A stretch of 64,000 nucleotides of DNA from Liolophura sinensis (Eukaryota > Mollusca > Polyplacophora > Chitonida > Chitonidae). Positions 4,739-45,918 of this stretch are shown here, one piece after another. The stretch's first letter is position 1. The number at the start of each line of letters is the position of its first letter. The notes under the pieces were generated by a model. That model was not told the DNA's origin, made no database searches, and saw only the letters and a program-made list of their open reading frames with translations. A program made the position numbers and the translations under genes. The DNA is taken from the NCBI RefSeq assembly GCF_032854445.1, contig NC_088295.1:9349385-9413384 (forward strand), read 5' to 3'.

Positions 4739-4934
4739 CACCAATGCGGTCGCTGTGAGTTCAAGTGCAGCTTATGCTGGCTTCCCCTTCGGCTGTAAGT
4801 GGGAAGGTTTGCCAGCAGCCTGTGGTTTCCTCCGGGCACTGCCCGGTTTCCTCCCACCGTAATGCTGGCTGCATTAACTGAAATATTCTTGAGTATGGCG
4901 TAAAACACCAATCAAATAAATAAATACATAAATA
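4739..4934 (+). mobile_element. tRNA-derived SINE (family I), 5'-truncated, forward
   Basis: The order is the box-B-like region (GTGAGTTCAAGTGCAGC), the body with GGTTTCCTCCCACC, then GAAATATTCTTGAGTATGGC, GTAAAACACCAATCAAATAA and a TAAA-type tail. The same sequence recurs in both orientations through this window. The copy lacks the box A part of the tRNA-like head. Confidence 0.8.
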
Positions 4935-5142: not shown

Positions 5143-7281
5143 AGAATCTGTATAAAGCAGCCAAGCAGTCAGAAATAATGAATTCTGAGAGAAATGTAAT
5201 ATGATTTATATTTGAATAATTTAATTCTTTGAATGTAGCCCATTAAATATATTTAAACATATTTCTTATTGCATTATTTATACATTTCCGGATTATACGT
5301 CATTATTCTTCGTTTAAAACTGTAACATCGCCGGAATATTGCCTGTAGCATTCTCATAGCAGAAAGGCGTTGTTGATCAAGCACTGTGTATCACCCCAGT
5401 ATTCCACAAGACGTACCCACGCTTGGCTATCCCAAAAGGCAAATAAATAACCCCACAGGTAGGGCCGCAAGAGTATTAGCTTTGAGAGATTTGCGCTTTT
5501 TTTAATCCCTGAGCATCTCCGATAAAATAGCGAAATATGATTTCCTCAATAATGATAACACCATTACTATTCCTGTGGGAAATTTCCATGGGAAATTTAA
5601 AACGTCTTGTCTTTTTTTATAAGTCTTGTTTCCTTGCGTTCTCCCAATGCAGACACCTCGTGGCGTCAAAATCGCTTTTTCTGGGTGTATCCCAAAGCGA
5701 GCATACACTACAGAATACCAAGGTTGATATGTGTTTCCAAGTTTCCAGATAAATCTTCAGCTCATTATTGAGGTGGATTTAAGCTTATCAGACTTAGAAC
5801 CTTAAAGCATTCACGCTCTGGTGGATTCAAGCGTGAAAAGGAACACTCAACATGGCCTGGTAATGGATTTACATTAACCTCTCTGAGTTAGAATTTATTA
5901 TACTTGCAACATTGTTCTCTGGGGTAAGTTTGAACTATTCATTGGGGCGGCAAAGCTGTAAGAATCATGGAGTGGTGTCCACTAATCAAAGTTAGGCGGG
6001 TGTAATAACATTACAGACCGGGCTTCCAATGTTGTATGACCAGAACCTCCGGTCTTTTCTCTACTGAGCGGGCCGTGTTAATGAGACGTGCTTATCTTGG
6101 GGTTTAATCCCGTTTTTGTACAGCAAAGCCGAGGAGATGGAGAAAGTGTGACTGTACTATTGATCTGAAATCGTGATGAACGTCTTCAAAAGTCAACCAG
6201 CTGAACTTAGGGAGATCTACAATGCAATAAGGAGCTTCTCACTGTCAGTTTGATCAGTTTCTGCGGACAAAACGCACCATCGATATCATTTTCTGGACGA
6301 AATTGGCCCGGTTCTAACTGCGCAATGGTGGGGAGTCACTGCGTTAGGAGGCATATTCCGCCAGTTGCAGGCCCTAACACTAAATCTGAAGAACCTCCCA
6401 ACATCTAGCAACCTTCAACCTGATCATTATGCCATAAAACAGCGTATTGTCCCTAAATGTTGCATGCATATCCACTACTATTGCCAGAAAAAGAATAGCT
6501 ATTTATCCTTTACTCCTGTTAATTCGAACTAGTTTTTTAAAAAATTTTATCTCGATTTTAGTGAGTTCCCAAACGTTTGCGAAGCTTATCAGTCAGTAAG
6601 ACAGATAAGATCCTTTAATGTGTGTCATTTTATGAGATCACAGGTACTGTTGCATCTCCACATCAGCATATAGTCTTTCCAATGCTTTTCGTTTGTAATG
6701 CGTCGTGGAGACCTACTTTTAACTAGGCTGTAAAGCTTGAAGACGACAGTATCAGTCATTTATGAATAATATCTAGGTTAAACAAAACCTTTGATGCTGA
6801 CAAAAGTGGAAGTTGGAAAGATGGAGTAAGAACACAGTTACATGTACCATTATGGTCCAACTTTTCCCTGGAATCATCAAATCTCAACATTGGGGTTACT
6901 TTCACAAACATTGGAGATTGCCATACCACACCACTGGATTACCGTACTTCAGCATGAGGATTACCCTGTCATAGCAAGGAATCCTTTACTCAAAAAACCA
7001 AAACAGATCACACAAGGAATGCTGTTTTGCTACCCCACGAGATCACTACTATAGCATCATGACAAGTCATTCAAGGCATGTTGACCATTCTGTCGTAACG
7101 TCTTTCATACCATGGCTACCATCCTGTTGCAATGTGGGAGTCATTCTGTCTTAACGTAATGGCAATCCGACTTGTACAATATGACAATTCTGTCTCAAAG
7201 TTGGCATCGGCTCAACAAATGTTTCAACTGGTTATACATGAACATTTGAAGCAATTTTGTCATCAGACTTGAAGTACGCTG
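5143..7281. other. Intergenic stretch
   Basis: No supported gene. Bases 7060-7200 hold loosely repeated ATTCTGTC- and CATTCTGT-type words, perhaps a decayed tandem repeat before the 114-bp array. Confidence 0.5.
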
Positions 7282-9437
7282 ACACAAAGACATCACACAT
7301 GCACCATCAATATCTGTACTTTCATTTCAATTTGTTTGGCCTCTGCTACTACGCTCCCCACTTCTCACCCTAGGGGAATCTACTGGTAACAAATGCACAG
7401 ACATCACACATGCACCATCAATATCTGTACTTTCATTTCAATTTGTTTGGCCTCTGTTACTACGCTCCCCACTTCTCATCCTCGGGGATTACACTGGTAA
7501 CAAATGACACAAAGACATCACACATGCACCACCAATATCTGTACTTTCGTTTCAGTTTGTTAGGCCTATGTTACTACGCTTCCCACTTCTCACTCTCGGG
7601 GATTACACTGGTAACAAATGACACAAAGACATCACACATGCACCATCAGTATCTGTACTTTCATTTCAGTTTGTTAGGCCTATGTTACTACGCTTCCCAC
7701 TTCTCACTCTCGGGGATTACACTGGTAACAAATGACACAAAGATATCACACATGCACCATCAATATCTGTACTTTCATTTCAATTTGTTTGGCCTCTGTT
7801 ACTACGCTCCCCACTTCTCACCCTAGGGGATTGCACTGGTAACAAATGACACAAAGACATCACACATGCACCATCAATATCTGTACTTTCATTTCAATTT
7901 GTTTGGCCTCTGTTACTACGCTCCCCACTTCTCACCCTAGGGGATTACACTGGTAATAAATGACACAAAGACATCACACATGCACCATCAATATCTGTAC
8001 TTTCATTTCAATTTGTTTGGCCTCTGTTACTACGCTCCCCACTTCTCACTCTCGGGGATTACACTGGTAATAAATGACACAAAGACTTCACACATGCACC
8101 ATCAATATCTGCACTTTCATTTCAATTTGTTAGGCCCCTGTTACTACGCTCCCCACTTCTCACCCTAGGGGATTGCACTGGTAATAAATGACACAAAGAC
8201 ATCACACATGCACCATCAATATCTGTACTTTCATTTCAATTTGTTTGGCCTCTGTTACTACGCTCCCCACTTCTCACCCTAGGGGATTGCACTGGTAACA
8301 AATGACACAAAGACATCACACATGCACCATCAATATCTGTACTTTCATTTCAATTTGTTTGGCCTCTGTTACTACGCTCCCCACTTCTCACCCTAGGGGA
8401 TTGCACTGGTAACAAATGACACAAAGACATCACACATGCACCATCAATATCTGTACTTTCATTTCAATTTGTTTGGCCTCTGTTACTACGCTCCCCACTT
8501 CTCACCCTAGGGGATTGCACTGGTAACAAATGACACAAAGACATCACACATGCACCATCAATATCTGTACTTTCATTTCAATTTGTTTGGCCTCTGTTAC
8601 TACGCTCCCCACTTCTCACCCTAGGGGATTGCACTGGTAACAAATGACACAAAGACATCACACATGCACCATCAATATCTGTACTTTCATTTCAATTTGT
8701 TTGGCCTCTGTTACTGCGCTTCTCACTTCTCACCCTAGGGGATTGCACTGGTAACAAATGACACAAAGACATCACACATGCACCATCAATATCTGTACTT
8801 TCATTTCAATTTGTTTGGCCTCTGTTACTACGCTCCCCACTTCTCACCCTAGGGGATTGCACTGGTAACAAATGACACAAAGACATCACACATGCACCAT
8901 CAATATCTGTACTTTCATTTCAATTTGTTTGGCCTCTGTTACTACGCTCCCCACTTCTCACCCTAGGGGATTGCACTGGTAACAAATGACACAAAGACAT
9001 CACACATGCACCATCAATATCTGTACTTTCATTTCAATTTGTTTGGCCTCTGTTACTACGCTCCCCACTTCTCACCCTAGGGGATTGCACTGGTAACAAA
9101 TGACACAAAGACATCACACATGCACCATCAATATCTGTACTTTCATTTCAATTTGTTTGGCCTCTGTTACTACGCTCCCCACTTCTCACCCTAGGGGATT
9201 GCACTGGTAACAAATGACACAAAAACATCACACATGCACCATCAATATCTGTACTTTCATTTCAATTTGTTTGGCCTCTGTTACTACGCTCCCCACTTCT
9301 CACCCTAGGGGATTGCACTGGTAACAAATGACACAAAGACATCACACATGCACCATCAATATCTGTACTTTCATTTCAATTTGTTTGGCCTCTGTTACTG
9401 CGCTTCTCACCCTCGGGAATTACACTGGTAATAAATG
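7282..9437. repeat. 114-bp tandem array, about 19 units
   Basis: Units begin with CATCACACATGCACCATCAA at 7291, 7402, 7516, 7630 and then every 114 bases to 9340. The first unit is 111 bp. Early units carry CTCTCGGGGATTACAC in their last third. Units from about 8200 to 9330 are nearly identical and carry CCCTAGGGGATTGCAC. A variant with TGCGCTTCTCAC occurs in one inner unit (near 8716) and again in the last unit. The period is a multiple of three, so early units stay open as a 38-residue peptide repeat, but most units have an in-frame TAG. I therefore read this as satellite DNA, not a gene. Confidence 0.95.
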
Positions 9438-13728: not shown

Positions 13729-13921
13729 TTTATTTATTTATTTGATTGGTGTTTTACGCCGTACTCAAGAATATTTCACTTATACCACGGCGGCCAGCAT
13801 TATGGTGGGTGGAAACCGAGTAGAGCCCAGGGGAAACCCACGACCATCCACAGGCTGCCGGCAGACCTTCCCACGTACGACCGGAGAGGAAGCCAGCATG
13901 AGCTGGACTTGAACTCACAGC
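13729..13921 (-). mobile_element. tRNA-derived SINE (family I) with 13-bp target-site duplication
   Basis: The body is as in the other copies. It is bracketed by perfect repeats of GTTTATCATAGTA at 716-728 past 13000 (13716-13728) and at 13922-13934. The copy is 5'-truncated just after the box B region. This shows insertion by target-primed reverse transcription. Confidence 0.9.
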
Positions 13922-21415: not shown

Positions 21416-24400
21416 TTATCTCTGTGTGGACATGGACACCTGCCACACTCGTATCAAATTGTCAGTGTAGCCAGCAAACAGTGTCTGACCATCAGATGAC
21501 CAGGCCAGGCAAGTGCACTGTGGGGGCTTTGTACCAGTGGTCAACACGTCCAGTCTCAGCTCGTCCACCACCAGCTTTGCCTCCAGATCCTGCAACAAAA
21601 ACAGCGCACGCCTGTACTGCCAGTATCAACATGCATAATCCGTACCACATTTGTATGTATGAACGTATGCTTGGGGTTTAACGCACTGCTTAATTTTTTA
21701 CTCATATGACGTGGAGTCATAAGGCACTGCTGCCACTGATCTGAAGGCCAACCTAGGCAGCAGCAAGAAAAATTTTAAAAACCTTTAAGGTAAGTATTTT
21801 GGTCATACCCTCATAATTGCAGGACATTGTTTTCACTGCTTCTGCTCACCAGCTAATACATGTCTTCTCTGAAATCACTGGGTACGAAGTCGTAATAAAG
21901 ATTTCTATCGCAACTAGATGCTTCATTATACATATATTCATCATTAATTTTAGCTAGAAATGAATTCAAATAACCCTAAAACATCAGCAGAAATCACTCT
22001 GCTTGGTGCAATAGACACATTTTCTACAGTTTGAATGTAGAATGAGTACATATCCAACAACCTTAGCAAACACTCATTTCAAGGGGATTGAGTTAAAAGG
22101 AAATCAACAACTCTATCTGGCCTGCCCTGATGATCACTTACCCAAATCTTGATTGTTGGTCCAGTAGCAGCACACAGCCAGTACCTGTTGGGGCTGAAGC
22201 ACAGGGAGTTTATGATCTCTCCTCCCTCCAGTGTGTACAGGTGCTTGCCTTCATTCAGGTCCCACAACATGGCACGACCATCCTAAAACACAACACACAC
22301 ATGTACAGTAAGAAGCTCGACAAAAAATATGTACACATGGCTCCAAGAAGAAAAGAATAAAGAACAGAATCATTCAACATTAAAACAAAACAAGTCGCTA
22401 GTTCACTGTATTAACACAGGAAAGATTAATTCTGCACCTTATTTTTGTTAACACGCATTTGATTAGTGTTGAATGCAGTACTCCAGAATACTGTTCTTCA
22501 CTTAGGACAGAATTACCAATACTGAAAACATGAAGCATTCGGTTCTGATTTACTCATCTATTTCACTGTTATTTACACAATGCTCAAGAACCTTTCACTA
22601 ATTGGATGGTAGTCAGGTCAGATTTATGGGCGGAGGAAAATGTGTGGTAAACCAACAATTCTTTGCAAATTAATGACACGTGACATACAGATGATATGCA
22701 CACCATATTAATGCAAGATATGTGATCTTCAATGAGCATACTGCGTAAACAACTACACAACCATCACTAACAACTTATTGTCACCAAGTCCCACATACAG
22801 TGAGAGCGCAGGAACCTACAAGTCCCTGTTCAAGGCCAGGTTTGATTTATTTATCTATTTATTTGATTGGCGTTTTACGCCGTACTCAAGAATATTTCAC
22901 TTATACGACTGCGGCCAGCATCATGGTGGGAGGAAAGGGGGCAGAGCCCGGGGGAAACCCACAACCATTCGCAGGTTGCTGAAAGACCTTCCCACTTACG
23001 GCTGGAGAGGAAACCAGCATAAGCTGGAATTGAACTCACAGCGACCGCATTGGTGAGAGACTCCTGGGTCATTACACTGTGCTAGTGCGCTAACCAACTG
23101 AGCCACATAGGCCCAGGCCAGGTTTGAATCACACCTGCTGTGCACACGTGATAAGATGGCAAGTACATTACCCACTAGGTGAAGGCCCGCTCTCTGATGG
23201 TGTTTCTTGACATCCCCTCTGTTGGGAAGAGCAGTGAATAGAGACCACCTGCTGAACTCACCTTTCCTCCAGATGCACACAGGGAACCATCAGGAGAGAC
23301 CGTTACACAGTTCAAGAAGCCAGCATGCCCAAAATGGTTCGTCTTCAGCTTACAGTTGGTCAAATTCCAAACCTAAAACAGAATGACAGAATGTAAATCA
23401 ATCATAAGAAAAAAACTTCACCTCATCTAGGGTTTGATAGTTTTACATCTAAAGCTTATTTTGCACGGCAAGAAATTGAAGCAAGGGGAGATAGTCTGTG
23501 TCCACATACATAACATATTTACCTCCCCTGCTAACAAAATGCGTTCCACATCCATGCCACAAGCATGAATGAACAAAAGCATTTTAACCATGATAGAGAT
23601 ACCCTCATAATTGCAGGACTTCGTTTTCACTGCTTCTGCTCAACAGCTAATACATGTCTTTTTTGAAATCATAGGGTATAAAATTTGTGTTAAACGAAAT
23701 GTTAAATCCTGAGGGGAAAAGGAACAAAGGTGATACAGGCGAAGGCTGAATAAAATTCATTGAACAGACTACCTACAACATATTTCAGGTTATGTTAAAT
23801 ATCAAAATTCTATCTTCAATGAATACACACTTTAGTAAAAATATAGATACGTTTCACCTATTTCTTGATTGCCAGATATGCAGCAACTATTACCTTTAAT
23901 AATAAACATTTCGTTTTTTAGTAAGTAAAAGCAGCAAAGTTGTTTTAAAAAAAAAAAAAAGAAAATAAGAAAGACACACAATGACCTAGGCAAATATATC
24001 ATTTAGGAAGAGAACCTGTCAGAGTTTAATATAATAAAAAACACATATTAAAACACAGAAAAACTTAAGCAAATACATCCTAGGAATTTGCACGAAGTTA
24101 TATCATTCTTGTTACTAAAACTGCATTACATCGGAGAATATCCTGAAAACATCTATTATTTATTTAGCAAGTGCTGACGCCTCTTTTCGCCTCTTACTGC
24201 TTTGTAAGGAATTGAGAGAGGGAGAGAAAATCGTCTGTGTTCCTACACCTTAACACCAACCATATCTGGGTAACATTCAGTCCTTTCAGCCATCAATGAA
24301 CAAGTATTTAGCCAGGACACCCTCATAAATGCAGGACTTATTTTCATTGCTTTGCTCAACAGTTAATACATGTTTTCCTTTAATTCATTGGGTATGTACA

Positions 24401-27400
24401 GTGTGTGTACCTATGCTAGGGGATTAATGTCGTGCTTAACAATTTTTCAGTCATATGACCATGAGGAGTCAGAAGGTGTGTGTACATACATTGTGTCCTC
24501 TTGTGGCATGGAAAGTCCATGCCATCAAAATGCTGCCACCACCCAAGTATATGTTGAATACACCAGACAGGACACATCACGCAGTCAGAATATACAGAGA
24601 GCAGGCCAATCAGTCCTGTTTCCTTGCTCTAACCTCTCAGTGCTGAGCACCAAGTGAGGCAGCAAAAAGTACCATTTTTAAAGTCTTTGGTACGACCCGA
24701 TCCGGGTTTGATCCCGGGCCTCCCGACTTTGTTGTTGCAGGACAGATTTCCGCCGCCCTTTTATCTAGTGCTGTTTCACTCCGACGACTTATCGAAGGCA
24801 AGCAAGCTGACCCACCTGCGCCATTATACTGATACAGATCAACCAGTTGTTGCACTATCCCCTTCATGCTAAACGCCAACTTCTTCTTTTAAGGTTTTAC
24901 ATGTGAACCGACTTAGGATTGACCCTGGATATACAGCCTTCCTAAAAGGATGCTCTACAAACTGTACTATCGGGGCTGGACTCCTGACTTCGAGACGGAT
25001 GCTCTAACCATTAGAACACATTAAGGAATGTTGGCTGCTTTTGAGAATTCAATTCAAGGGCTGTACTAATTGATTTCTGTTTCCATATAAGTTGTCGTCT
25101 ACATCACTGACCTGACATTATTATACATGCTTGACATGATGTCAAATATTTTAACCACCTGATTTTATATCTGAGTGAAGCCTTTCTGAAGATTTTTGCA
25201 CTTAGAGCAGTCAGGTTTTTGTGTGTTGTAGAAATTTTAACATATCAAATTTAAGAATTCATGGTTTTCAACAACAAATATCACAACTATAACCTAAATC
25301 CTATCACACAACAGAACACTTCTGTACATCTTAGAGCCTCATCCTTGATGAAAATGCCATTAAGTATCAATTTCGAAAATTCCCTTCACATGGAGTTCTC
25401 TACCTTCACAAGAAGTGAATGTCTATTACATGTACATCAATTCCAGCCTTTCGTTAATTTAACCCTTGGGTAGTATAAAACGGACTTGCTTCATTTATTT
25501 GATTGGTGTTTTACTCAGAACTCAAGAATATTTCACTCATATGATGTCAGCCAACATTATGGTGGGAGGAAATCAGGAAAACTAACTCGGTGGTGATGGG
25601 GTAATTTTGTTAAGATGAAATATAGACATAGATACCCTCATAATTGCAGGACATAGTTTTCATAACTGATGTTCAACAGCTAATACATGTCTTTTTCTTA
25701 ATCATAGGGTATAGCTTGAAGACAAACTTGTCCTGAAGAAAATGACAAAAAATGCATGTTTTCTATCCAACCTTATTCTTTAAATCTTGACCTCCACTAT
25801 CAACATTGATTTAAGCAATCTGCCTGTCCTATATTTTTGATATTTAAAGCCTCTGGTGAAGACGGTGTTGTAACACAGAAAACAATTCAATGCTTGAGTA
25901 ATGTCCCCTAACCAAACGCAACTGGTTCCTTAGTTCCCTAGATTACAAAGCAAGGGCGTCCTAAACTTTTCACTCCTTGTCTTTAATGGGCGGCAGGATT
26001 GACTGACAGAGCAGAGGAGATATTCTGTGTTAAATACTACAACGCTGGTCAGGCTTCAATACATGTTTTACACCTCTAACTCAGCTGAGGCAGAGCATTC
26101 TGTTAATTTGCCTATCTCTCACACCAGCCAAACTGCAATGGTTCTATCCTTTTAACCTATTCCCAACAAGCACCAAAATACAAAACACATATAGCTGTAG
26201 TAGTATGCTAATGTTGCGCGATATATAAGGCCATGTCCTCACCTTGACAAGTTTGTCCCAGCCACAAGACACAATGATGGGGTTACTGGTGTTTGGGGAG
26301 AAACGTACACAAGAGACCCACTCGGAGTGACCATCCTCCTAAAAACATAACAAAATACACATCACATCTGTACAGAGCATCAGATATCTACTCCTGTACA
26401 CAAAGGACAAAATTCACCCTATACCCACATTCCTATCACACTAGTTAATCAACACACTAGAGTTAAATCGTAGTTAATTACAGTCTATTAACAATGAAAT
26501 CAAAAATTAGCAACAATGCATTAGCCTAAAGTGTCAAAGGATCAGTTGTCCAAACTTATCTCTTCGTGGGAACGTGGGGTGTTTTCACACAGACGAAAAA
26601 GTGGTTTCTTACTAGATGTATTAACGAAGTGTTACGCTGGTAAAGACAGTGGTCATGTCTAACTCACCTGTATGGTATATTTACAGACACCCAGCGTGTT
26701 CCACAACTTGATCGTCTTGTCTCTGGAGCCTGACACAATCTGTCGGTTGTCTGCTGAGAAAGCTACACTCAGAACATCCTTAGTGTGTCCAACAAATCGC
26801 TTTGTGCTCATGCCACTAGTAAACAGAACAAATGGCCAATTATGAAGCATGATGGGGTAAGCATAAAAGAACACAAAAAACAAGCTGTCAGTGACCGCAA
26901 ACATGTTGTTCACTAACACTCCTCACCTTCCATACAGTAAGTAATGTAAATGGTTCAGTCTAAGACTTCTAATGGACAAGACATAAAAGTCAAGATGTTA
27001 CCATAGAATGGCAAAGCTTTTTGTTGCCATCTTTGTTGCAAGCATGTAAAAAACCATGAGAGACAAGTCCATGTCAAATCATTTCTTTTGGGCATTTTTA
27101 TTTCTCTGTTAATTTCTGTAAAATCACTCTTTTCCTTGGGCAAAATCAAAAATTCCCTACCATTACTTACTGGCATACTTTGTTTAATTGCGTTTAAACA
27201 ATTCATTAAACTTAAGCATCCAAATACGACTCAGTTTCATGGACAGAGGAAGCTCAAAGAGCAAGACAAATGAACCACAACTTCCCTACCCTGTGAGATC
27301 CCAGAGTCTGAGTGTACCGTCCCAGGATCCAGACAGAGCAAACTGCCCATCTGAGGACATCACCACGTCGGACACGAAGTGTGAGTGGCCTTTCAATGAG

Positions 27401-29085
27401 CGCTGCGGTATACCGTAGTTGGTCTCATCCCTGGTTAACTGCCACATGATTAGAGACTTGTCTGCAACACAATGATCACCAGGTTTAATAATACACGTTC
27501 TAATATTAAGACACACGATTACTATCAACTGAGAAATTGCATATTGTTCACAGCGTGAAAGAAATTTTTAACTATTAGAAGCCTGGCTAGTTACTCTCAT
27601 AATTGGAGGACTTGGTTTTCATAACTCAAGTTCAAAAGCTAATACTCATAATCACAGAGTAACAAGGCCAGCTAAACTACAGATGAGGAGAATGAGGGAA
27701 TAATCTTTAAACTGTTATCAGATTCAGTGAAAGCATTTTTACTCCAGTACACATGTTACCAGCTGTAGCTGTACAAATGCATTGTTTAATATGCAGGAAA
27801 AATCCATCTAGTTAGAGTTCTGAGATAGATCCTAGCACAACGATACCTCTCACTGCAGATTTCCAAACATCAACTTATTGAAACTGATTACAAGTTCTTA
27901 AGATTCAACCACAGAATGACACAAACAAGAGAAACGGTAGCAAGTTTGATTGTGAGAAGTGGGTAGGTGGGAGTTTGAAACGTGAAAAAAGGTTTGAGAG
28001 GTGGACTCCCTGTCATGATGGTCAGAATATCACAATAATCCATGTCTATCTACATGCACTAGTAAAACCCTTTATTACCATCAGAAGGGCCCACCATCAC
28101 AAACCCTGATGGATAAATCGAATCTATCCAAGATTTATTTAACTTGATTGGTGTTTTACGCCAGCATTATGATTTATTTTATTTATTTATTTGATTAGTG
28201 TTTTACACCGTACTCAAGAATATTTCACTTTTACGACAGCGGCCAGAATTATGGTGGGAGGAAGGGTGGAATAGACAGGTTGTTGGCAGGCCTTCCCACG
28301 TACAGCCATAGCGGAAATCAGCATGAGCTGGATTTGAACTCACGTGACCGTATTGGTGGGAGGCTCCTGGGCCATCGCACCGTGCTAGCGTGCTAATCCC
28401 CTAAGCCACGGAGTCCCCTAATTTATCAACCAGCCCATAGTCTCAGATTCAGACAAGTATATGACGTCTTGACTAAGGTACAGTATACATCTCATTATAT
28501 AACAGACGTTGACAATACTTTGACAATCATAGAATGTTATGAACCACTACAGTTTACAAAATAGACTACGTGAATCAAGTGGGATAGAAGGAAGAGGGGA
28601 GCAAGGTTGAGGCTATTTTGACGTAGAATTTCGGACTTGCCTTAACATTACAAAGTTATAAACGAAGGCAACAAGCATTGCTCTATACACAGCGTGCCCG
28701 GAACATCCATTCTACATTCTAATGTTATCGGTACGTCCTATCTTGGGCTTACAGAAGTGTACAACAACAACATCATACAAGTCTGCAACGCAGCCGCTTC
28801 TGCATGCGTTTCTGAGGAAGTAAAATATCACATTCAAGAGTGTGTAATCAGCGCTCACAGGGTGATATTGTTTAGCTTTTTTTCTTTAATTCTCTTAAAT
28901 TAACACTGCCACGACGTTAACTGAACAGAAACATTTGGTGACAAATGAATGACAACCATGTTGTGATACCGCGTACCTCGGGAGGCAGACAAAATCATGT
29001 TCGGAAATTGTGGTGTAGTGGCGATTTGGGTAACCCATCCAGAATGACCCATGAGGGTACCCCGTAATGCCATCATTTCAGCCAT
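21416..29085 (-). CDS. RACK1: Receptor for activated C kinase 1 (RACK1), complete, seven coding exons
   Basis: A seven-bladed WD40 scaffold of the 40S ribosomal subunit that also binds protein kinase C. Exons in transcript order: 29085-28977, 27461-27290, 26815-26668, 26338-26243, 23372-23262, 22282-22142, 21589-21416 (stop included). All introns are GT-AG and phases agree. The joined length is 951 bases, 316 residues, the family's usual length. It starts [20 protein letters not shown] in a good context (AAAATGG). Recognisable family words are [52 protein letters not shown] and [14 protein letters not shown]. Arg36 and Lys38 in SASRDK correspond to the ribosome-contact residues of blade 1. 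No frameshift or missing blade is seen. Introns 1, 4 and 6 carry snoRNA-like elements, and introns 1, 4 and 5 carry SINEs. Transcription probably starts at the pyrimidine tract near 29187. Confidence 0.97.
21664..21760 (-). mobile_element. Fragment of tRNA-derived repeat family II
   Basis: GGGGTTTAACGCACTGCTTA, then CTCATATGACGTGGAGTCAT on +, match the equivalent stretch of the longer copies at 24400 and 48690. Only the tail-proximal part is present. It lies in RACK1 intron 6. Confidence 0.6.
21806..21884 (-). ncRNA. Box C/D snoRNA-like element A (U96-like, dual guide), RACK1 intron 6
   Basis: Predicted 2'-O-methylation guide RNA. On the minus strand: stem TACCC/GGGTA at the ends, C box GTGATTT (21878-21872), D' region TATTAG-CTGG, C'-like AGTGAAA, and D box ATGA (21814-21811). 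The guide before D pairs with AAUUGCAGGACA of 5.8S rRNA (12 bases, 21815-21826). By the fifth-base rule it marks the G, the site assigned to vertebrate U96. The guide before D' (CATGTATTAG) pairs with CUAAUACAUG of 18S rRNA, a site I recall for U45. Vertebrate RACK1 also hosts a U96 snoRNA, which supports homology. The C and D boxes are unorthodox, but their changes are paired. Confidence 0.8.
22846..23115 (-). mobile_element. Full-length tRNA-derived SINE (family I) in RACK1 intron 5
   Basis: A complete copy bracketed by a perfect 12-bp duplication, GGCCAGGTTTGA, at 22834-22845 and 23116-23127. On the minus strand the head has box A (TGGCTCAGTTGG) and a box-B-like GTGAGTTCAATTCC. Then come the body and the tail AATCAAATAAATAGATAAAT. 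This copy defines the family: about 270 bp, tRNA-derived head, and a 3' end reading CGTAAAACGCCAATCAAATA. Confidence 0.92.
23599..23679 (-). ncRNA. Box C/D snoRNA-like element B (U96-like, dual guide), RACK1 intron 4
   Basis: Stem ATACCC/GGGTAT, C box ATGATTT (23672-23666), D' CTGT then TGA, C'-like AGTGAAA, and D box ATGA (23608-23605). The D guide matches 11 bases of 5.8S rRNA (AAUUGCAGGAC). The D' guide CATGTATTAG matches 18S rRNA perfectly. One of the three intact-looking members. It lies 719 bases from element C, and their flanks are also alike. Confidence 0.8.
24317..24395 (-). ncRNA. Box C/D snoRNA-like element C, decayed, RACK1 intron 4
   Basis: Same architecture as element B with losses. 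The stem is weakened by a mismatch, the C box is ATGAATT, and the D box is ATGA. The D guide has one mismatch to 5.8S rRNA at the third base from the D box (GCATTTATGA). The D' guide ends TATTAA instead of TATTAG. Probably a duplicated copy losing function. Confidence 0.6.
24400..25018 (-). mobile_element. Two adjacent partial copies of tRNA-derived repeat family II
   Basis: The first (24400-24740) runs from GGGGATTAATGTCGTGCTTA through TTTCAGTCATATGACCATGA and CTCTCAGTGCTGAGC to GGGTTTGATCCCGGGCCTCC. The second (24750-25018) repeats CCATTATACTGATACAGATC and ends TTCGAGACGGATGCTCTAAC. On the minus strand the end resembles a tRNA with a box A-like TAATGGTTAGAGC and a box B-like GGGATCAAACCC. 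In RACK1 intron 4. Confidence 0.65.
25491..25590 (-). mobile_element. SINE (family I) fragment in RACK1 intron 4
   Basis: TTTATTTGATTGGTGTTTTA, then AACTCAAGAATATTTCACTC and CATTATGGTGGGAGGAAATC give the 3' half of the family I SINE in reverse. The head is absent. Confidence 0.8.
25632..25712 (-). ncRNA. Box C/D snoRNA-like element D (U96-like, dual guide), RACK1 intron 4
   Basis: Stem ATACCC/GGGTAT, C box ATGATTA (25705-25699), D' CTGT, C'-like TATGAAA, and D box ATGA (25641-25638). The D guide matches 12 bases of 5.8S rRNA (AAUUGCAGGACA) and the D' guide CATGTATTAG matches 18S rRNA. Intact-looking, and the third such element in this one intron. Confidence 0.8.
27590..27663 (-). ncRNA. Box C/D snoRNA-like element E, diverged, RACK1 intron 1
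   Basis: It has the best terminal stem of the five (GTTACTC/GAGTAAC, seven pairs), C box GTGATTA (27655-27649) and D box ATGA (27600-27597). The 5.8S guide has a mismatch at the sixth base (CTCCAATT instead of CTGCAATT). The 18S guide has lost its CAT end (GAGTATTAG). It may still guide weakly, or be a relic. Confidence 0.6.
28131..28421 (-). mobile_element. Nested SINE (family I) copies in RACK1 intron 1
   Basis: A short tail piece (28131-28169, TTGATTGGTGTTTTACGCC then AGCATTAT) is followed by a near full-length copy. The latter runs from TTTATTTGATTAGTGTTTTA through AATATTTCACTTTTACGACA to the tRNA-like head complement CGTGCTAGCGTGCTAATCCC. The short piece has lost its middle or was interrupted by the second insertion. 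Confidence 0.8.
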
Positions 29086-37181: not shown

Positions 37182-40100
37182 CTACATGCGATTCGGCTGT
37201 GTGAATATTGTTGCCAGTGACACGATGACAGTCGTTAGGTAGATAAGGAAAAAAATTCTGTCCAGCACGAGCGCGAGTTGTTTCCACTCCTTGGCCATTT
37301 TGTCTCTGCGCTCCTTCTCGGCAGTTCTAGCTGCCCACTCGTTTATTCTAGTTCTGATATCGCTCACTTGCTTTTCTAAGTACGACGCCTCATACGATCG
37401 CAAAGGCGTCGAGTTGTTAGACTGTAATGATTCGGAATCGCGTTTTCCTTGAAACAAGTGTTCAGCGGAACTTTTCCAGTTCTCGGACCATTTATTGTAG
37501 CCGTTGGAACACTCGAATCGCTGTCCTGTTAGGTAGCGTCTGTTACGAGGTAAAATCTTCTCATCTTTATCCGACGCCTTCTTTTCCTGGAAACAATCCA
37601 TGCACAGGATTTTTCCCAAGACATCGATGAATACCTGTTAAATACAATCCATAAGAGAAAACACTTAGGAGAGCGCTGCAAATGGTTATTTTGTTATGTG
37701 TGCAATATCACAATCATTTTTTTCCCCCCCAATAGTCTCAGCGTAAATAATTTTATCACTGTTTACATTTTTGAAAATTTGTATATTACTGGTTTGAAAA
37801 TATTGCAGTTGGTTCATGTTCCAACCTGGGATTTGAAAGGTTATGGTCTGATTCTTATGACAATTGCTAATGGTGGACAGTCTGCTGTACCTCTAACCAG
37901 CTTGGATCACTTTTCAAAAGTTACGATCTCACCAATACGGACATACAGTCATCGACTGAAGATATTAATAGAAGCTTAGCGTTTTCTCACATGGGCATTT
38001 AAAGGTAAGATGTTCTCTATATGTTTGGTGAGATCAAAACACAAACTTTTGTCCCAGGCGATGTAGAGCCAACATTTACACATACTGTTTCATCATTATC
38101 CTTTGGACGCATACTGTTTTCACATTAACATTCCTGACTGGAAATGTCCCACAAACACATGCTGAATGTCACAATGTCAAAGTTAGCGGTATGTCCATCA
38201 ATTCCCTCTACTCTAGGAATGTTTGTGTATATACGCTGTGCATGACACACATGGCCTCCCTGCGTCTATGTAATACACCAAAGCGCATAATGCCAAAAAG
38301 GCACATTAATAGCGTGAGTGTAACGTTGCAGACATGGAGAAATCTACTGAGCTATTTCTCCCACACACACTATCACGGCTCGGTCATGAAACCATGTTCC
38401 CATGAGCAAACGCCAACGGTCACGGGTACATGCTAAAACAGTTAAAACTTGCGTGGGCCATCAATGCAGTAGCTTGATATTTTTTTTAGATTTTAGCATG
38501 AAAAGAAATTTAATTGGAAATTGTAACGTGTGGAATCATCCCAGAATAAAAACAAGACGGCCTGATTGCTTACTATCTGAATATCGATAGCTCCCACGCA
38601 TCACAAAAAATGATTAGCATGTGAGAACTCGTATAACAAAGTTAGCTGAGTTAACAATTAATTGAGGCGTTTTTCTAAGTAGCTGGTGGCAAAGCATAGA
38701 GAACATACATTTATTCTAGCATTTGTGGTATGTCAAATGTTTTTATACTCTGTAGATATGTTAGAAAATTAAAACTTTACCTCAATATCACAAACACGGA
38801 TAATACATTCCACGTTTTACATAACATCATATTAATAACTATGACGTCGTTTAAACACACCCGTTTTCAGTTGCCTGTACTCACCTTTTTCAGTATTTTA
38901 GGCATTGGTCCTCTGGCTCCATAAAACGAGAGGTTGACGACGATGACATTGAGGAAAGAGGACAGCGTGATGAGGATCATGTTAAGGCAATAATACACAC
39001 CTGCAACAAAACCAATAGTTACAGATATAATAACCAATATAACGGCTGAGAATTAAGAACCGTGAAGTAAATATCTTACAAAGATACTTCATCGTTACAG
39101 ATCACAAATTATAATACGTCAAAATCTGGGGTTTGAGTATATAGTTTAATCCAGATGGGATTCGAAAAGTTATGGGAATTTCTATGCAGTGCGAACCAAG
39201 GAATATCAAGTTATACATGTACATACAGTTGTAATAAACAGCGGCGTTGATAAACTCCACGTTACTTCGTGATTTTTAGGGGCCTCCGTTGCCGAAGGGA
39301 TTAGCACACCAGCGCATTGAGCTTCCCAACAATGCGCTCGCCGTGAGTTCAAGTACAGCTTACGCTGGCTTTCTCTCCGGCCATACGCGGAAAGATCTGC
39401 CACCAAACAGCGGATGGCGGTGGGTTTTCCCAGGGCTCTGTCCGGTTTTTCTCGCAATAAAACGTGAAATATTCTTGAGTTTGGCGTAAAACACCATTTA
39501 GAAAAATAAACAAATAAATTCGTGATTTTCTTGTTTTCTTTGATTCATTCGGTAAACAGACTTCATTTCAACCAAATTGAAAGCCAAGGGCAATTCCAAG
39601 TTTATCTCGTTGGTTGTCAAACCCGAAATGGCTAAGCTATAAACAACACATTTTTAGTAAAAGTCAAATGCATATATGATAATCGTAAAAACAACTCTCT
39701 TGCTGTATCATATTTGAAAAAAGGCTCACAGAGCAAAACCACGGACCATTGAGATACGCAGTTCGGTTTTGTAGCAGATATAACGAGCATGTCCCTCTTT
39801 CGTGACGTTAATTTATCAGGGCTTGTGAAATAACATACTGGAAACCGTGACACTAATTCGTTCACCTGAGATATAATCGATTAATTTCCATGTGTAGATT
39901 ATCTGTATGTCGTCGGTAGTTTAGTGTTCACACTTAGACAAGAATCTAATCAAAGTCGACATAACGACTATTTGCTGGATAGACGGTGGATTGGTCGCCA
40001 CAAACGCTGTTACTAGGACGTGAATACGGACTGATATAATGTCGACCATAGATTCTGGAGTTTACATAACTGGTTCCGCACACAGTTTCAATGCACAAAT

Positions 40101-43100
40101 TAACAAGGCGCACAAACCCAGTCTGGCTTTATGACAATACATTTCAATTACAGCTCGTGGCCCATTGCCTTTTATCTCGACGCCATGACACCCTAACCAG
40201 CGCTTTGCACGACAATATGAAGCCAACGTCAAAATGGAGAAGTTGTGTTTTGTTTGCCAGTGATTGCTCTCTACTCTGTCCGCTGGTTATTAACACGATC
40301 ATGTCTGTCTGATCAGTGTCCATTTGAGCCATAAAAACACTAAAGCACATGGGACAACGCTATTTAATTATTCTGTGAGCAGTCATGCATTGTCGATATT
40401 TAATGAAAAGATCGCCTTATTTTGTAGCCAGTTTGAGTGGCAATATGAGTTCTCTACCGAAAGGCACGAAGCTTTATATCACATTGCGTCACCCTTCAGA
40501 TCTTCAGTCACAACTAGCTATTATGAGATTAAAAGATAAAAATAGTTTTCATCACTTACATCTAGAGTGAAAGGCTATCAGTTTTAGTACCACATGGTAC
40601 TTCGATTTCAAATAGATCTGGATGAATCAAAACCAGATAATAGAATAAATGCACCATCTACCAGGTATTCTCTGGAATTAGCTTTGAGATTACGTGAACA
40701 TTAATTAATGAGATCCAACATGCCTGTGTTCGTTCGCATCATACTATAGGGCTGTGAACAAATATCCTTAAATTATTACATTGTAAACAGTTTTGTTTAA
40801 TCCTTTAATCCTCACAGATATCAAGAAACTACTGAACCCCTAATACGTGATAGTTAAACCATCTGTCATTTCACCCAAACAGTGTTAGATGAAGAGCCCA
40901 GCCGTTGTTCAGTAATTTTTTTAACACATCAATCCTTGGGGAAGCGTGCTGGTGGCCGCTGGTTTCTTTGGTTAAACATGTGCTCTCATGCAGCTCAAAG
41001 TATATATATCGACTATTATTAAGAAAGAGATCGTGGGTTCGAGTTGAGCTTTCGCTTGGTCATCGGTCAGGTGGTTCTTCCTTTTACGGTAAAGGGCGGT
41101 GGTTTATATTGAATCCCCCAAAACTTAATCAACCCATAAACATGACCGCCGTCGTAAAAGTGAAAATTTTTTGATTGCGTTTATTACCACTTATATATTA
41201 AATTTTCTTTCCTGTTCTTCCAATTCAACATTGATGAGTTTCGATATGTATTTTCTAATATATATTTCTGAACATCGAGTGAAGAGGATAAGAGAGGAAT
41301 GCACCAGTCACGTGATCTTACCGATGAGTGGGATGGTCGATGCCGCCGGTGGAATAGATTCCTCTAACAACAACAGTAAGACGAAGAACGCCACAAATAT
41401 GTTCATACCTGGAAAACAATGAGTTGCATTAGTCCAGAGTAGCTATTTTCGGTTTTACATTTGAAACTATCCCCGTTTAACAAAAATCAATAGCATATAG
41501 TCAGCACTTTGAGGTAAGTATCAAATCAGGGGAAAAACAGAAACTGAGATCAGAATCAGACTAAAAATGTGGAATACACAAATGTGGGATATACGAATGC
41601 CTTCCGATTAAAATATTTTATCGCCGTAATCTGCTTAGAGGGGATTCTGGCCGTACAGCTGTCAAGCATATCCCTTCCAGCTAGTTTTAACCTGGGAGCA
41701 CAAAAGGCCCTTCCAGCTAGTTTTAACCTGGGAGTACAAAAGGCCCTCCCAGCTAGTTTGAACCTGGGAGTTCTAAAGGCCTTTCCAGCTAGTTTGAACC
41801 TGGGAGTACAAAAGGCCCTCCCAGCTAGTTTGAACCTGGGAGTACTAAAGGGCCTTCCAGCTAGTTTTAACCCGGGAGTACAAAAGGCCCTCCCAGCTAG
41901 TTTGAACCTGGGAGTACTAAAGGGCCTTCCAGCTAGTTTTAACCCGGGAGTACAAAAGACCCTCCCAGCTAGTTTGAACCTGGGAGTACAAAAGGCCCTT
42001 CCAGCTAGTATTAGCCTGGGAGTACAAAAGGTTATTATTATTACAAACCATAATTTACATCCTAGCTTGATTATCTGACAAATAAATAAAAAAGATTTCA
42101 TACAATAGTTTTTTGCTCTAAAGCTTCGCATGATTCAGGTACATGTAGTTCGCGACATTAAAGCTCTAGCAGATTAACAAGCTTTTCTGTTGTTTCCGGT
42201 GTCGGGTTTTAATCGAATATCTTTATGTTTAAAAGTTTTATGTCAAACAACTTAACTGTGCGAAAATCACTACAAGATATTTTAAAACGTGAGCTTAGGA
42301 AAAGAGACCAAATGCAGTTGAACAGGAAGCATTTGCATGCATGTCTTTATCTAGTTTATATAGAAATTCCTTTTCAACAATATTATTAGTCACACAGCCA
42401 TGATTATACAAAATTTTGAATAAAAAAATTCATCATATAAAAAGTGTAATACACAGCAACTGTATGTACGACATCAAAAGTGATATTTATCTGAATTTTG
42501 TGTAAATTTTCCACTGACTTGCTGTACACAGGGTGGGGGTTTAAGACGGCTACAAGACGGAGATTTAAATTTTTGCGTGTGTCTAATCTTACGTCCCCAT
42601 ACAGAAGGGCTTTAAATGAAGAGTCAGACAAGCTCAGACAATTTTTTGTCTGAAGTTGTTCCCGTACAAATCAAAATGAATCTACCTGTATATGCGGGCT
42701 TATAATTAGTTCCTACCATCAATTCAAAAAAGTGTGGAAATTCTCAATAAGGTGGCCGGGAAAACTGCACATGCAAGGTGATACCTCGACCTGCCCCGAA
42801 ACTACGCACAGATTTCAAAACTGGTCCGCTGAGAACAGTGACAGTCACAGATAGAGACATAATCCAGTGCGGCGTACGCTAAACCACACTCGAATTGACA
42901 CACCAATCACTTCACTACATTTACATACCCAGCTGCATCTTAGCCGGCGACTCGGGTGGTATCCAGAACAGAACAAGGGTAAGTGTAGACAAGAGGACAC
43001 ATGGCAGGATGAGGATGTAGTTGTAAAACACGGCACTTCTCCGCATCCGGAGGATGAATGTCAAATCGGGGTAAATCTCCGGGCAACAGGTATACTTTAT

Positions 43101-45918
43101 CACATTTTTAATTCCTCTATTTTCAATAATTTCCCACTCCTTGTTCACGATATAATCACTCATGTCGTAAGCCAACATTCCCTTGGCAAATTCCATATCC
43201 ATCTTAAGGCCGTTGTACGTCCACGATCCGAATTTTAATCTGCACTCTTGTTCGTCAAACGGGAAATATTTGATGTCTATAGCACAGGAGCTTTTGTAGA
43301 CCGCCTGGGGCATCCAGAGCACCTGTCCGGAACTGTAAACCACGGCCAAAGCCTGCCGATGTTCATCAATCCTCTGGTCAGCACTGTGACACAAAGAACA
43401 TAAATCATTCCTTAAAAGTTCGTTGAAGACAACGAAAACACCATGCTTCTATGAAATATATATGTTTTATAAAAATCTATTAAACTCTGTCAAGGAAAAT
43501 AATTCTAGATTTGTTTTTAGAATTTTCGCAAGGTTGTAAAATGCATGTGAACCTTCGAATTCTACAGTGAACTTTTCTGATCCTATTGTAATCAGTGACG
43601 GACGACATGTTTCTGCCACCTAATGCACACAACTTGCTAGACTTAATTCTGCAGTCAGAATGCAAATGCAGTTACATATAAAGCTATACTTATGAACCCT
43701 TTCATTCAATGGACCTCGGAACAAACTATATCAAGCAAAACAATAATTAATGGGTCACTATACACATCATTGCAAAACTTTTGGAAGCCTTTTACTCTGT
43801 TGGAGATATCAGAATACAAAATTCTTTCAACCTTCCGGGATTATCCGAATTTCAACGGTATTTCATCTGGCTACAGCTCGAAAAGTTATAATGCGATCAG
43901 CTTTATAAATTTTACTAATTTTATTAACGATTTTAAAATGGTAAAACATGTACAGACGAGGCTGATATTTTGTGAAAGGTAGTTATTCGAGTTAATCTAA
44001 AATGATGGCAAAAATTAGATCAGATTCGATTTTTGCCCAAAAAATGGCTTCTTTGTTGTAAATGAGAACGATATGAAAGTAAAGGTGAGACTATAGGCTA
44101 AATGAACTTAGCCCTTGTCATAATACATGGCCTAATTTCCAGGATATTTGTGGATGCTGAAGTGTTCATGGTGGAACAATCATGTGCTGACTGTATAAGA
44201 AGTTTGACTTCAGTCAGACATGGAGTTCACATCAATGTCTCCAATAAAATCTGCTGCAACGACGGCCATATACTGTTTTATTTCAAATCTTCCATCGTTC
44301 ATAAAAATCCATTTCATAGCAAATCGGCCTATGGGACAATAGCAGCTATTCCGTGCTGTGTACTCACTAGTTGTACAGTTTTATGTCTGGAGTCCAGATT
44401 TTCTCTGCCGGAACACGGACTTCTGTCACGTCTCCAAAGTCGGCGGGGTTCCACCGCAGAAACGTGTCATTCCATTCCTAAACAAATTCACGGAACGTAA
44501 AATTCACAAGTAGGCTGGACAACTTTACCAGCATGATGTAACGGAACCAAACTAATTTGTATTTAGCAAAAAATAAAACAAGCGGCGTCGAATATAGAGA
44601 TATAGGCTATTTGCTTACATATGTATAGCACTGGGCACATTGGATAACAAAAGAACAACCCACATTTAACGTCAACCACCATCAAATACATTTTTTATTC
44701 CCTTGCACTGTTCCCTTGCATCTCTTTTCAACCTGCACATTGAAGTCATACAATATTGAAAGCAAGGAATTTGAAGCATATAGTGTATATTACATACAAT
44801 CCTTAAAGACCCCGTTGAAGACTGATTTATCCTGCCTGCTGTTCACTATCTCTAGCTTAAATTATATACATTGCAAACTCTACCCCATTGACTGATCTGA
44901 TCAAATATTCAGCTTATCCGGAGTTCGGATTAAATTATTAAATTATTATTTTTATTGAATTATCTTGTATTCGTGTCATTGTCATTTAGTGTAAATTTCT
45001 GGTGCTATTGTCCCAACTTCTGTTGCGTTAGTTGAGCATATCTCAGTGTGCTGGCTTCCATGCATTTCTACTCACCAATCTATCCCATACGTTCAGAATT
45101 AACACTTGGTTTTTGGCATCCAGTTCCATTATTTGTATAAGATTAAGTCCAAAATGAACCTTGATAATATCGTGGAAATTCAGAACTGGTCTGCCGTATA
45201 TCCCACGGTCTTCATATTCCTTCAGCAAGATTTTGATCAACTTCTTTTCATCCGACGTCAACGTGCCATTAATTATAGAACCTGGTAAGAAATTAACGTG
45301 AGACAATGCGAAACAAAACAGATTAATCAACATGAGACATAGCGAAACATAGCGACACATCAAGATGAGACAGCGTAACACAGCGACACGTTAACGTGAG
45401 ACAGTGAATAACATAACTACAGAGCAACGTGAGAAACTGAGAAACATAACGACAAATCAGCATGATATACTAAAAACATATACCGAGAAATCATTGAGTA
45501 TGAACACACCACAGCTTAAAAGTAGGAGCGGCTATATTCCAGTGCATTTCATATGACCTTGCACGATTACACATGGAAAAGCGTCAGGACATTGAGTCAG
45601 TTAGAACGCATCGATTTATAGTAGTCCCTACAAATAATTAAAGGATGTACACCAAAACCTGCATCTAAAAGTGCTACACATTTGGGAAGGATATTTTGAA
45701 ATGCTTGGAGCATTAGGCCTTATTAATATTGCAATATTTTCTTGTCAACATCGAAAAGAGTTCACCTAAATTGATAATTAATTACTTGCTTGTATGTATG
45801 CTGGTTAACTGCTTTAGTAATTGACTGGCTAAATGGACATCCTACCTGATCGCTTAGCCGTGACTGTTACCACAACCAGGAAAGACCACCAGAGAAATTC
45901 ATAAATCGTCAACATCAT
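37182..45918 (-). CDS. Nicotinic acetylcholine receptor alpha-type subunit with anion-channel-like M2 border, complete
   Basis: A pentameric ligand-gated channel subunit of the plasma membrane. Exons in order: 45918-45846, 45281-45076, 44477-44368, 43383-42929, 41408-41322, 39000-38885, 37634-37182. All introns are GT-AG with consistent phases. The sum is 1500 bases, 499 residues. Residues 1-25 are a signal peptide. Ligand-site residues are Trp95, Tyr128, Trp184, Tyr227, the vicinal pair Cys229-Cys230, and Tyr234, so it is alpha-type. The Cys-loop is Cys163-Cys177 with 13 residues between. M1 is about 250-272, M2 279-298, M3 about 312-335 and M4 about 470-492. The M1-M2 linker reads ESPAKMQLG: Pro276-Ala277 replace the Gly-Glu of cation channels, as in the Pro-Ala-Arg of glycine receptors. 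M2 is unusually hydrophobic (Asn at 6', Val at 9', then FFVLLLLL). Introns hold a SINE and a 36-bp VNTR. No AATAAA was seen close after the stop codon. Confidence 0.95.
39277..39518 (+). mobile_element. Full-length SINE (family I) antisense in an nAChR intron
   Basis: Bracketed by TTCGTGATTTT at 39266-39276 and 39519-39529, an 11-bp duplication. The head reads GGGGCCTCCGTTGCCGAAGG, where the box A region has diverged, with a box-B-like GTGAGTTCAAGTAC. The 3' end reads TTGGCGTAAAACACC, then the A-rich tail. Confidence 0.9.
41670..42030. repeat. 36-bp minisatellite (VNTR), ten units, in nAChR intron 4
   Basis: The unit is about CTTCCAGCTAGTTTGAACCT followed by GGGAGTACAAAAGGCC. Two unit types alternate in the middle of the array: one with TTGAACCT and GTACTAAAGGG, the other with TTTTAACCC and GTACAAAAGGCC. 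This gives a 72-bp higher-order repeat. The period is a multiple of three and lacks stops, so open frames run across it on both strands. It lies between the exon ending at 42929 and the exon starting at 41408, so it is intronic. Confidence 0.95.
43925..44075 (+). repeat. Dispersed repeat, copy 2, in nAChR intron 3
   Basis: GATTTTAAAATGGTAAAACA, GGCTGATATTTTGTGAAAGG and TCTAAAATGATGGCAAAAAT parallel the segment at 30835-30990. Similarity is patchy. Confidence 0.5.
45290..45475. repeat. Degenerate ~35-bp repeat in nAChR intron 1
   Basis: AACGTGAGACAGTG- and GAAACATAGCGACAC-like words recur about five times. It is too diverged for a fixed consensus. Confidence 0.55.

Follow-up and report, generated by a model that had tools for sequence, protein, structure and literature searches.

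Two vertebrate snoRNAs are among the closest described systems for the elements reported here, U96, which guides modification of 5.8S rRNA at G75, and U45; in human numbering, position A-158 of chicken 18S rRNA is A159. As a modified residue, 5.8S-Gm75 appears in the legend of a published figure (PMC5597630), and human U96A is found within the second intron of RACK1 (PMC3941584). The 18S rRNA site U172 has been assigned to SNORD45A and 45B, which carry the guide in the D' position and have RABGGTB as host gene (PMC8210301). In chicken U45A/C the counterpart site is 18S-U-171, guided by 13 nt on the 5' side, and the 3' guide is for 18S-A-158 (PMC2653536). Other pairs of guides have been reported in Neurospora crassa, where CD32 joins a U45-type 18S guide in D' to a U44-type guide in D, and CD29 combines guides for 5.8S and for U2 (PMC2780460). 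Guiding functions have been recombined among chicken C/D RNAs, with intragenic duplication (PMC2653536), and human C/D families lie mostly within one host gene (PMC8178906).

In the 64-kb stretch of DNA analysed here (the window), five short elements, named A to E, were located in the introns of a RACK1 gene. Their features strongly favour the view that they are intron-encoded box C/D snoRNAs in which one RNA would guide the methylation of both 5.8S G75 and 18S U172.

Host gene, elements and kink-turn

The RACK1 gene occupies positions 21416–29085 of the minus strand, with seven coding exons (29085–28977, 27461–27290, 26815–26668, 26338–26243, 23372–23262, 22282–22142 and 21589–21416) whose borders were picked by reading; all introns are GT-AG. 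The joined exons gave a 316-aa frame, the product of which matched a PDB chain named G-beta-2-like 1 at E 9.5e-194. The PDB matches at E ≤ 1e-100 comprised 47 distinct chain sequences, the majority of them named RACK1, G-beta-2-like 1 or an orthologue. These results agree with the host gene given in an initial annotation of this DNA, and the range that it had given for the elements (21806–27663) fits the coordinates found here (21805–27663). All five elements have the orientation of RACK1 (minus strand) and are 74–81 nt long. Element A (27590–27663) lies in intron 1, elements B (25632–25712), D (24317–24395) and C (23599–23679) in intron 4, and element E (21805–21885) in intron 6; the copies are thus in RACK1 introns as previously proposed, but not one per intron, since B, D and C share intron 4.

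A covariance model built from the same five elements and run on the window recovered them at E 8.3e-23 to 9.5e-17 (A, 81.7 bits; B, 105.0; D, 92.5; C, 107.2; E, 101.7), scores that are to be expected because these five built the model. The informative part is the absence of a sixth copy from the 64 kb; apart from the five, the model matched just the opposite strand of B (E 0.44) with the limit set at E 10. A strict scan for C/D snoRNAs in the six RACK1 introns returned A and B only and, having overlooked C, D and E, says little on further C/D snoRNAs there. Comparison of the 300-nt flanks of the copies by BLAST showed two 13-nt matches on the opposite strand (E 0.01) and no same-strand similarity at E ≤ 0.05; from the latter, the copies are either old or were exactly copied.

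Alignment of the five copies agreed with the anatomy previously described for A to E on the minus strand, namely a terminal stem with C, D', C' and D boxes. All 36 letter cells of the terminal stem were paired, and two pairs were changed on both sides. The same pairing was reached by 33 of 500 shuffles, which makes this a weak control, and when the partner columns were offset by 1 to 3 positions, 31–56% remained paired. The stem letters of B are ATACCC...GGGTAT, and those of A, which has the longest stem of all copies (8 bp), are GTTACTCT...AGAGTAAC. Box C reads GTGATTA in A, ATGATTA in B, ATGAATT in D (AUGAAUU in the RNA), ATGATTT in C and GTGATTT in E, and box D is ATGA in all five; D'-like and C'-like boxes are present in every element.

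A kink-turn of the usual type, with RUGAUGA as box C and CUGA as box D, has base 6 of box C paired with base 1 of box D. In all five elements U6 of box C faces A1 of box D, and the adjoining pair is U-U in four copies and A-U in D, so that, by sequence, the C and D boxes are able to form a kink-turn on the terminal stem. Read in this way, the replacement of G-C by U-A in all five is a compensated kink-turn pair, for which reason AUGA is not read as a decayed box D. A Drosophila guide with a replacement of the U-U to A-U type stayed fully active in Xenopus oocytes, although in nuclear extracts changes of this kind are reported to have weakened or eliminated the binding of core proteins (PMC6770171). 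On the extract result, the A-U pair of copy D would count against its function as a snoRNA.

Several other features were recorded in the window. An interspersed repeat with the tail GTGAAATATTCTTGAGTACGG..., which we take to resemble a type typical of mollusc genomes, was found at 4878–4915, 13742–13779, 22863–22900, 25499–25536 and 28191–28228 with up to 3 mismatches (0 in 100 shuffles); three of these five copies are in RACK1 introns 5, 4 and 1. A tandem array with a 114-bp unit (18.7 copies, 97% match) extends from 7280 to 9404 and contains an open frame at 7410–7826. Two open frames on the minus strand, at 42921–43394 (PF02931 and PF02932) and 37182–37619 (PF02932), matched neurotransmitter-gated ion channel domains in Pfam and are probably exons of receptor genes of this class.

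Guide segments and their rRNA targets

Targets were set by the D+5 rule against human rRNA segments, and human numbering is used. The segment upstream of box D complements 5.8S rRNA, its fifth position selecting G75, and the one upstream of D' complements 18S rRNA, with U172 as the residue selected. Both residues are known to be methylated, and the numbers obtained agree with the published sites (PMC5597630, PMC8210301). Both pairings had been put forward in the initial annotation, the first with the G of vertebrate U96 as its target and the second as a U45-type guide, and both stand, although the sequences CATGTATTAG and GTCCTGCAATT are exact in only three of the five copies (B, C and E), with one mismatch each in D. 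In B, the D-box guide TGTCCTGCAATT (25642–25653) is directed to G75 and the D'-box guide CATGTATTAG (25680–25689) to U172; the corresponding guides are at 23609–23620 and 23647–23656 in C, and at 21815–21826 and 21853–21862 in E, all on the minus strand. Copy D has, on the same strand, a mismatch at D+3 in the D-box guide (24327–24338) and another at the position adjoining D' in the D'-box guide (24363–24372). In copy A, also on the minus strand, the D-box segment AGTCCTCCAATT (27601–27612) is mismatched to 5.8S at D+6 and the D'-box segment TGAGTATTAG (27639–27648) has no more than 7 nt paired to 18S. At least 10 nt antisense to rRNA upstream of D and D' are therefore found in B, C and E (11–12 nt against 5.8S, 10 nt against 18S) and not in A, the pairing in D being of 8 nt to 5.8S and 9 nt to 18S. 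Since both guides are exact in B, C and E only, the "five dual guides" proposed earlier are too strong a statement: it holds for these three, D has one mismatch per guide, and A drops out.

Predicted duplex energies for B, C and E were −17.8 to −18.7 kcal/mol with 5.8S and −11.4 kcal/mol with 18S. The values for D were −15.3 (8 pairs) and −9.9 kcal/mol (9 pairs and 2 past a gap), and those for A −11.1 and −6.5 kcal/mol, respectively. The joint pattern CATGTATTA, 10–60 nt, GTCCTGCA and box D occurred four times on the minus strand of the window (B, D, C and E), never on its plus strand, and in none of 200 first-order Markov sequences. Among B, C, D and E, 7 of 50 columns were variable in stems, boxes and guides versus 17 of 31 elsewhere (Fisher p 1.5e-4, a value that is not blind, the functional columns having been marked after the alignment was seen), and each guide has one variable column. 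Copy A was excluded from this count on account of a gap of 9 nt and the changes in its guides.

The combined guide pattern had no exact match in viral_contigs or in genome_contigs, where few animal sequences are expected. The 18S and 5.8S target patterns gave no matches in viral_contigs, and in genome_contigs the 18S pattern was found at 12 loci that appear to be contaminating eukaryotic sequence; the presence of the target at these loci is circular because the search pattern contains it. An 18S gene was confirmed by Rfam in all four of the 12 loci submitted, with the target at 159, 163, 163 and 166 of the match. A 5.8S sequence was present in two of these four; one (L014) has AATTGCAG at position 70 and then diverges from the animal sequence, and the other (L005) is without AATTGCAG, so that universality of the 5.8S target was not borne out. 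In a protostome, a fly 5.8S primer supports GCAGGACACA, and Drosophila 5.8S carries Gm74 (PMC13228274). This is probably the same residue as G75, in which case G75 methylation in an invertebrate is plausible.

Two features set copy A apart from the other four: 9 nt are missing from the stretch that separates box C from the D' segment, and the terminal stem is extended. It keeps good kink-turn letters together with mispairing to both 5.8S and 18S and, judged from its letters, is a scaffold whose guides have been lost or altered. Through a single change its D guide has come to match fly U2 snRNA over 10 nt (within a 22-nt segment), an effect that no other of the 33 single changes has; U2 as target of copy A is a lead only, found post hoc and resting on a fly primer. 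A U2-type pattern derived from the copy A guide matched three viral contigs.

Proposed function and alternative readings

According to the dual-guide explanation, the RACK1 introns would be spliced, debranched and trimmed by exonucleases back to the terminal stem capped by the C/D kink-turn, which would recruit 15.5K, NOP56/58 and fibrillarin. The guide before box D would then pair with 5.8S rRNA, leading to methylation of G75, and the guide before box D' with 18S rRNA, leading to methylation of U172. Besides the observed anatomy, pairing, host gene and concentration of variation outside guides and boxes, we infer that the RNAs are transcribed, processed and active in methylation. The elements would be old copies within one gene, of which B, C and E retain both guides, and D probably still works. 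This explanation is weak in that B and D lie a long way from a 3' splice site, three copies occupy one intron and the C' boxes are degenerate.

In the seven-exon model, the distances from element to 3' splice site are 128 nt for A, 2259 for B, 226 for C, 944 for D and 215 for E. Even those of A, C and E exceed the usual distance of vertebrate snoRNAs. These distances, together with guides that are broken in A and slightly so in D, favour a reading in which A and the copies deep in intron 4 (B and D) are decaying pseudocopies and expression is confined to C and E, which lie near 3' splice sites. We regard it as a serious possibility, though less likely than not, and it would narrow the dual-guide explanation without excluding it; however, at 2.3 kb from the splice site B has its boxes, stem and guides all intact, and A keeps its 8-bp stem and kink-turn letters.

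That a single guide works in vivo (5.8S G75 through D, or 18S U172 through D'), with the other kept as a conserved relic, is in our judgement unlikely. The degenerate C' boxes would fit such a relic, as would the fact that many snoRNAs are single-guide, double guides making up about 15% of 83 chicken C/D guide RNAs (PMC2653536); yet both guides are exact in the same three of five copies, each has one mismatch in D, and each is limited to the single variable column mentioned above.

A mobile or structural repeat without snoRNA function, its guide matches being coincidental, might be suggested by a short element in five copies and by the interspersed repeat also present in RACK1 introns, but is scarcely credible given that all copies follow the gene orientation and that the guides are in the correct register for two known methylation sites; the mobile-repeat form of this reading was rejected, no copy being found outside RACK1 in the window and the flanks lacking same-strand similarity.

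A wider version of the dual-guide explanation is very improbable as a whole. It would have a snoRNA family of this lineage, with fused 5.8S-G75 and 18S-U172 guides and a switched kink-turn pair, multiply in RACK1, tying methylation of both subunits to the output of a ribosomal scaffold gene, and would have copy A keep its scaffold with the guide moved to a new target.

If the dual-guide explanation holds, guides for two ribosomal subunits that are on separate RNAs in vertebrates would be united in one element, with the host gene shared with one of them. The locus would represent a case of guide reshuffling that is datable by comparison with relatives, and a natural kink-turn base-pair switch, and its five paralogues in one gene would allow guide loss to be followed.

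Comparison with described C/D RNAs

No Rfam family reached its cut-off in the window. An Infernal-type comparison with SNORD96 and SNORD45, which the initial annotation had indicated as a check, gave weak matches to SNORD96 only, well below its cut-off. Single scans, which covered A, B and E, gave SNORD96 (RF00055) on B with 18.1 bits (cut-off 43; fifth by score among 11 weak matches) and on E with 14.9 bits (cut-off 43; best of 3 weak matches); it was absent from the weak matches of A. Rfam also holds a SNORD45 model, which had no match at its cut-off in the window and none among the matches up to E 10.

The end of the SNORD96 consensus, CUGcAAUUCUGA, resembles CUGCAAUUAUGA of the elements, so that the same rule gives 5.8S G75, and the RACK1 host is common to human U96A and the elements, although the intron numbers differ (1, 4 and 6 for the elements). 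The U96 comparison of the initial annotation thus agrees in both the guide before D and the host. In contrast, the SNORD96 consensus has box C GUGAUGA and box D CUGA, whereas the elements have mostly RUGAUU and always AUGA, and the segment before its presumed D' (AUCUUUCGGGaCUGA) is unlike CATGTATTAGCTG of the elements. Most of the agreement falls in the stem, in box C and in the guide before box D. The consensuses of SNORD97 (RF01291) and U54 (RF00206) show the same box combination as the elements, U at position 6 of box C with AUGA as box D, but their guides are different, and the matches (21.4 of 45 bits to B and 19.1 of 40 bits to A) fall mostly in stem and boxes.

With SNORD45A/B the elements share the 18S U172 guide in the D' position (PMC8210301), in accordance with the U45 comparison made previously. 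They differ in the second guide, which is for 18S in that family (A-158 in chicken) and for 5.8S here, and in the host, RABGGTB there and RACK1 here. Neurospora CD32 likewise has a U45-type 18S guide in D' with a different partner guide, and CD29 likewise joins a 5.8S guide to one for another RNA, but its 5.8S site is A42 and not G75. In these vertebrate and Neurospora RNAs, as here, the U172 guide is in D' and the partner guide varies. The initial annotation knew of no description of the combined 5.8S and 18S guides, and no published description was recognised among the literature matches listed, which came largely from outside the subscription literature. Since guide reshuffling and intragenic copies have already been described, it is the combination that appears to be new, and not the kind of RNA.
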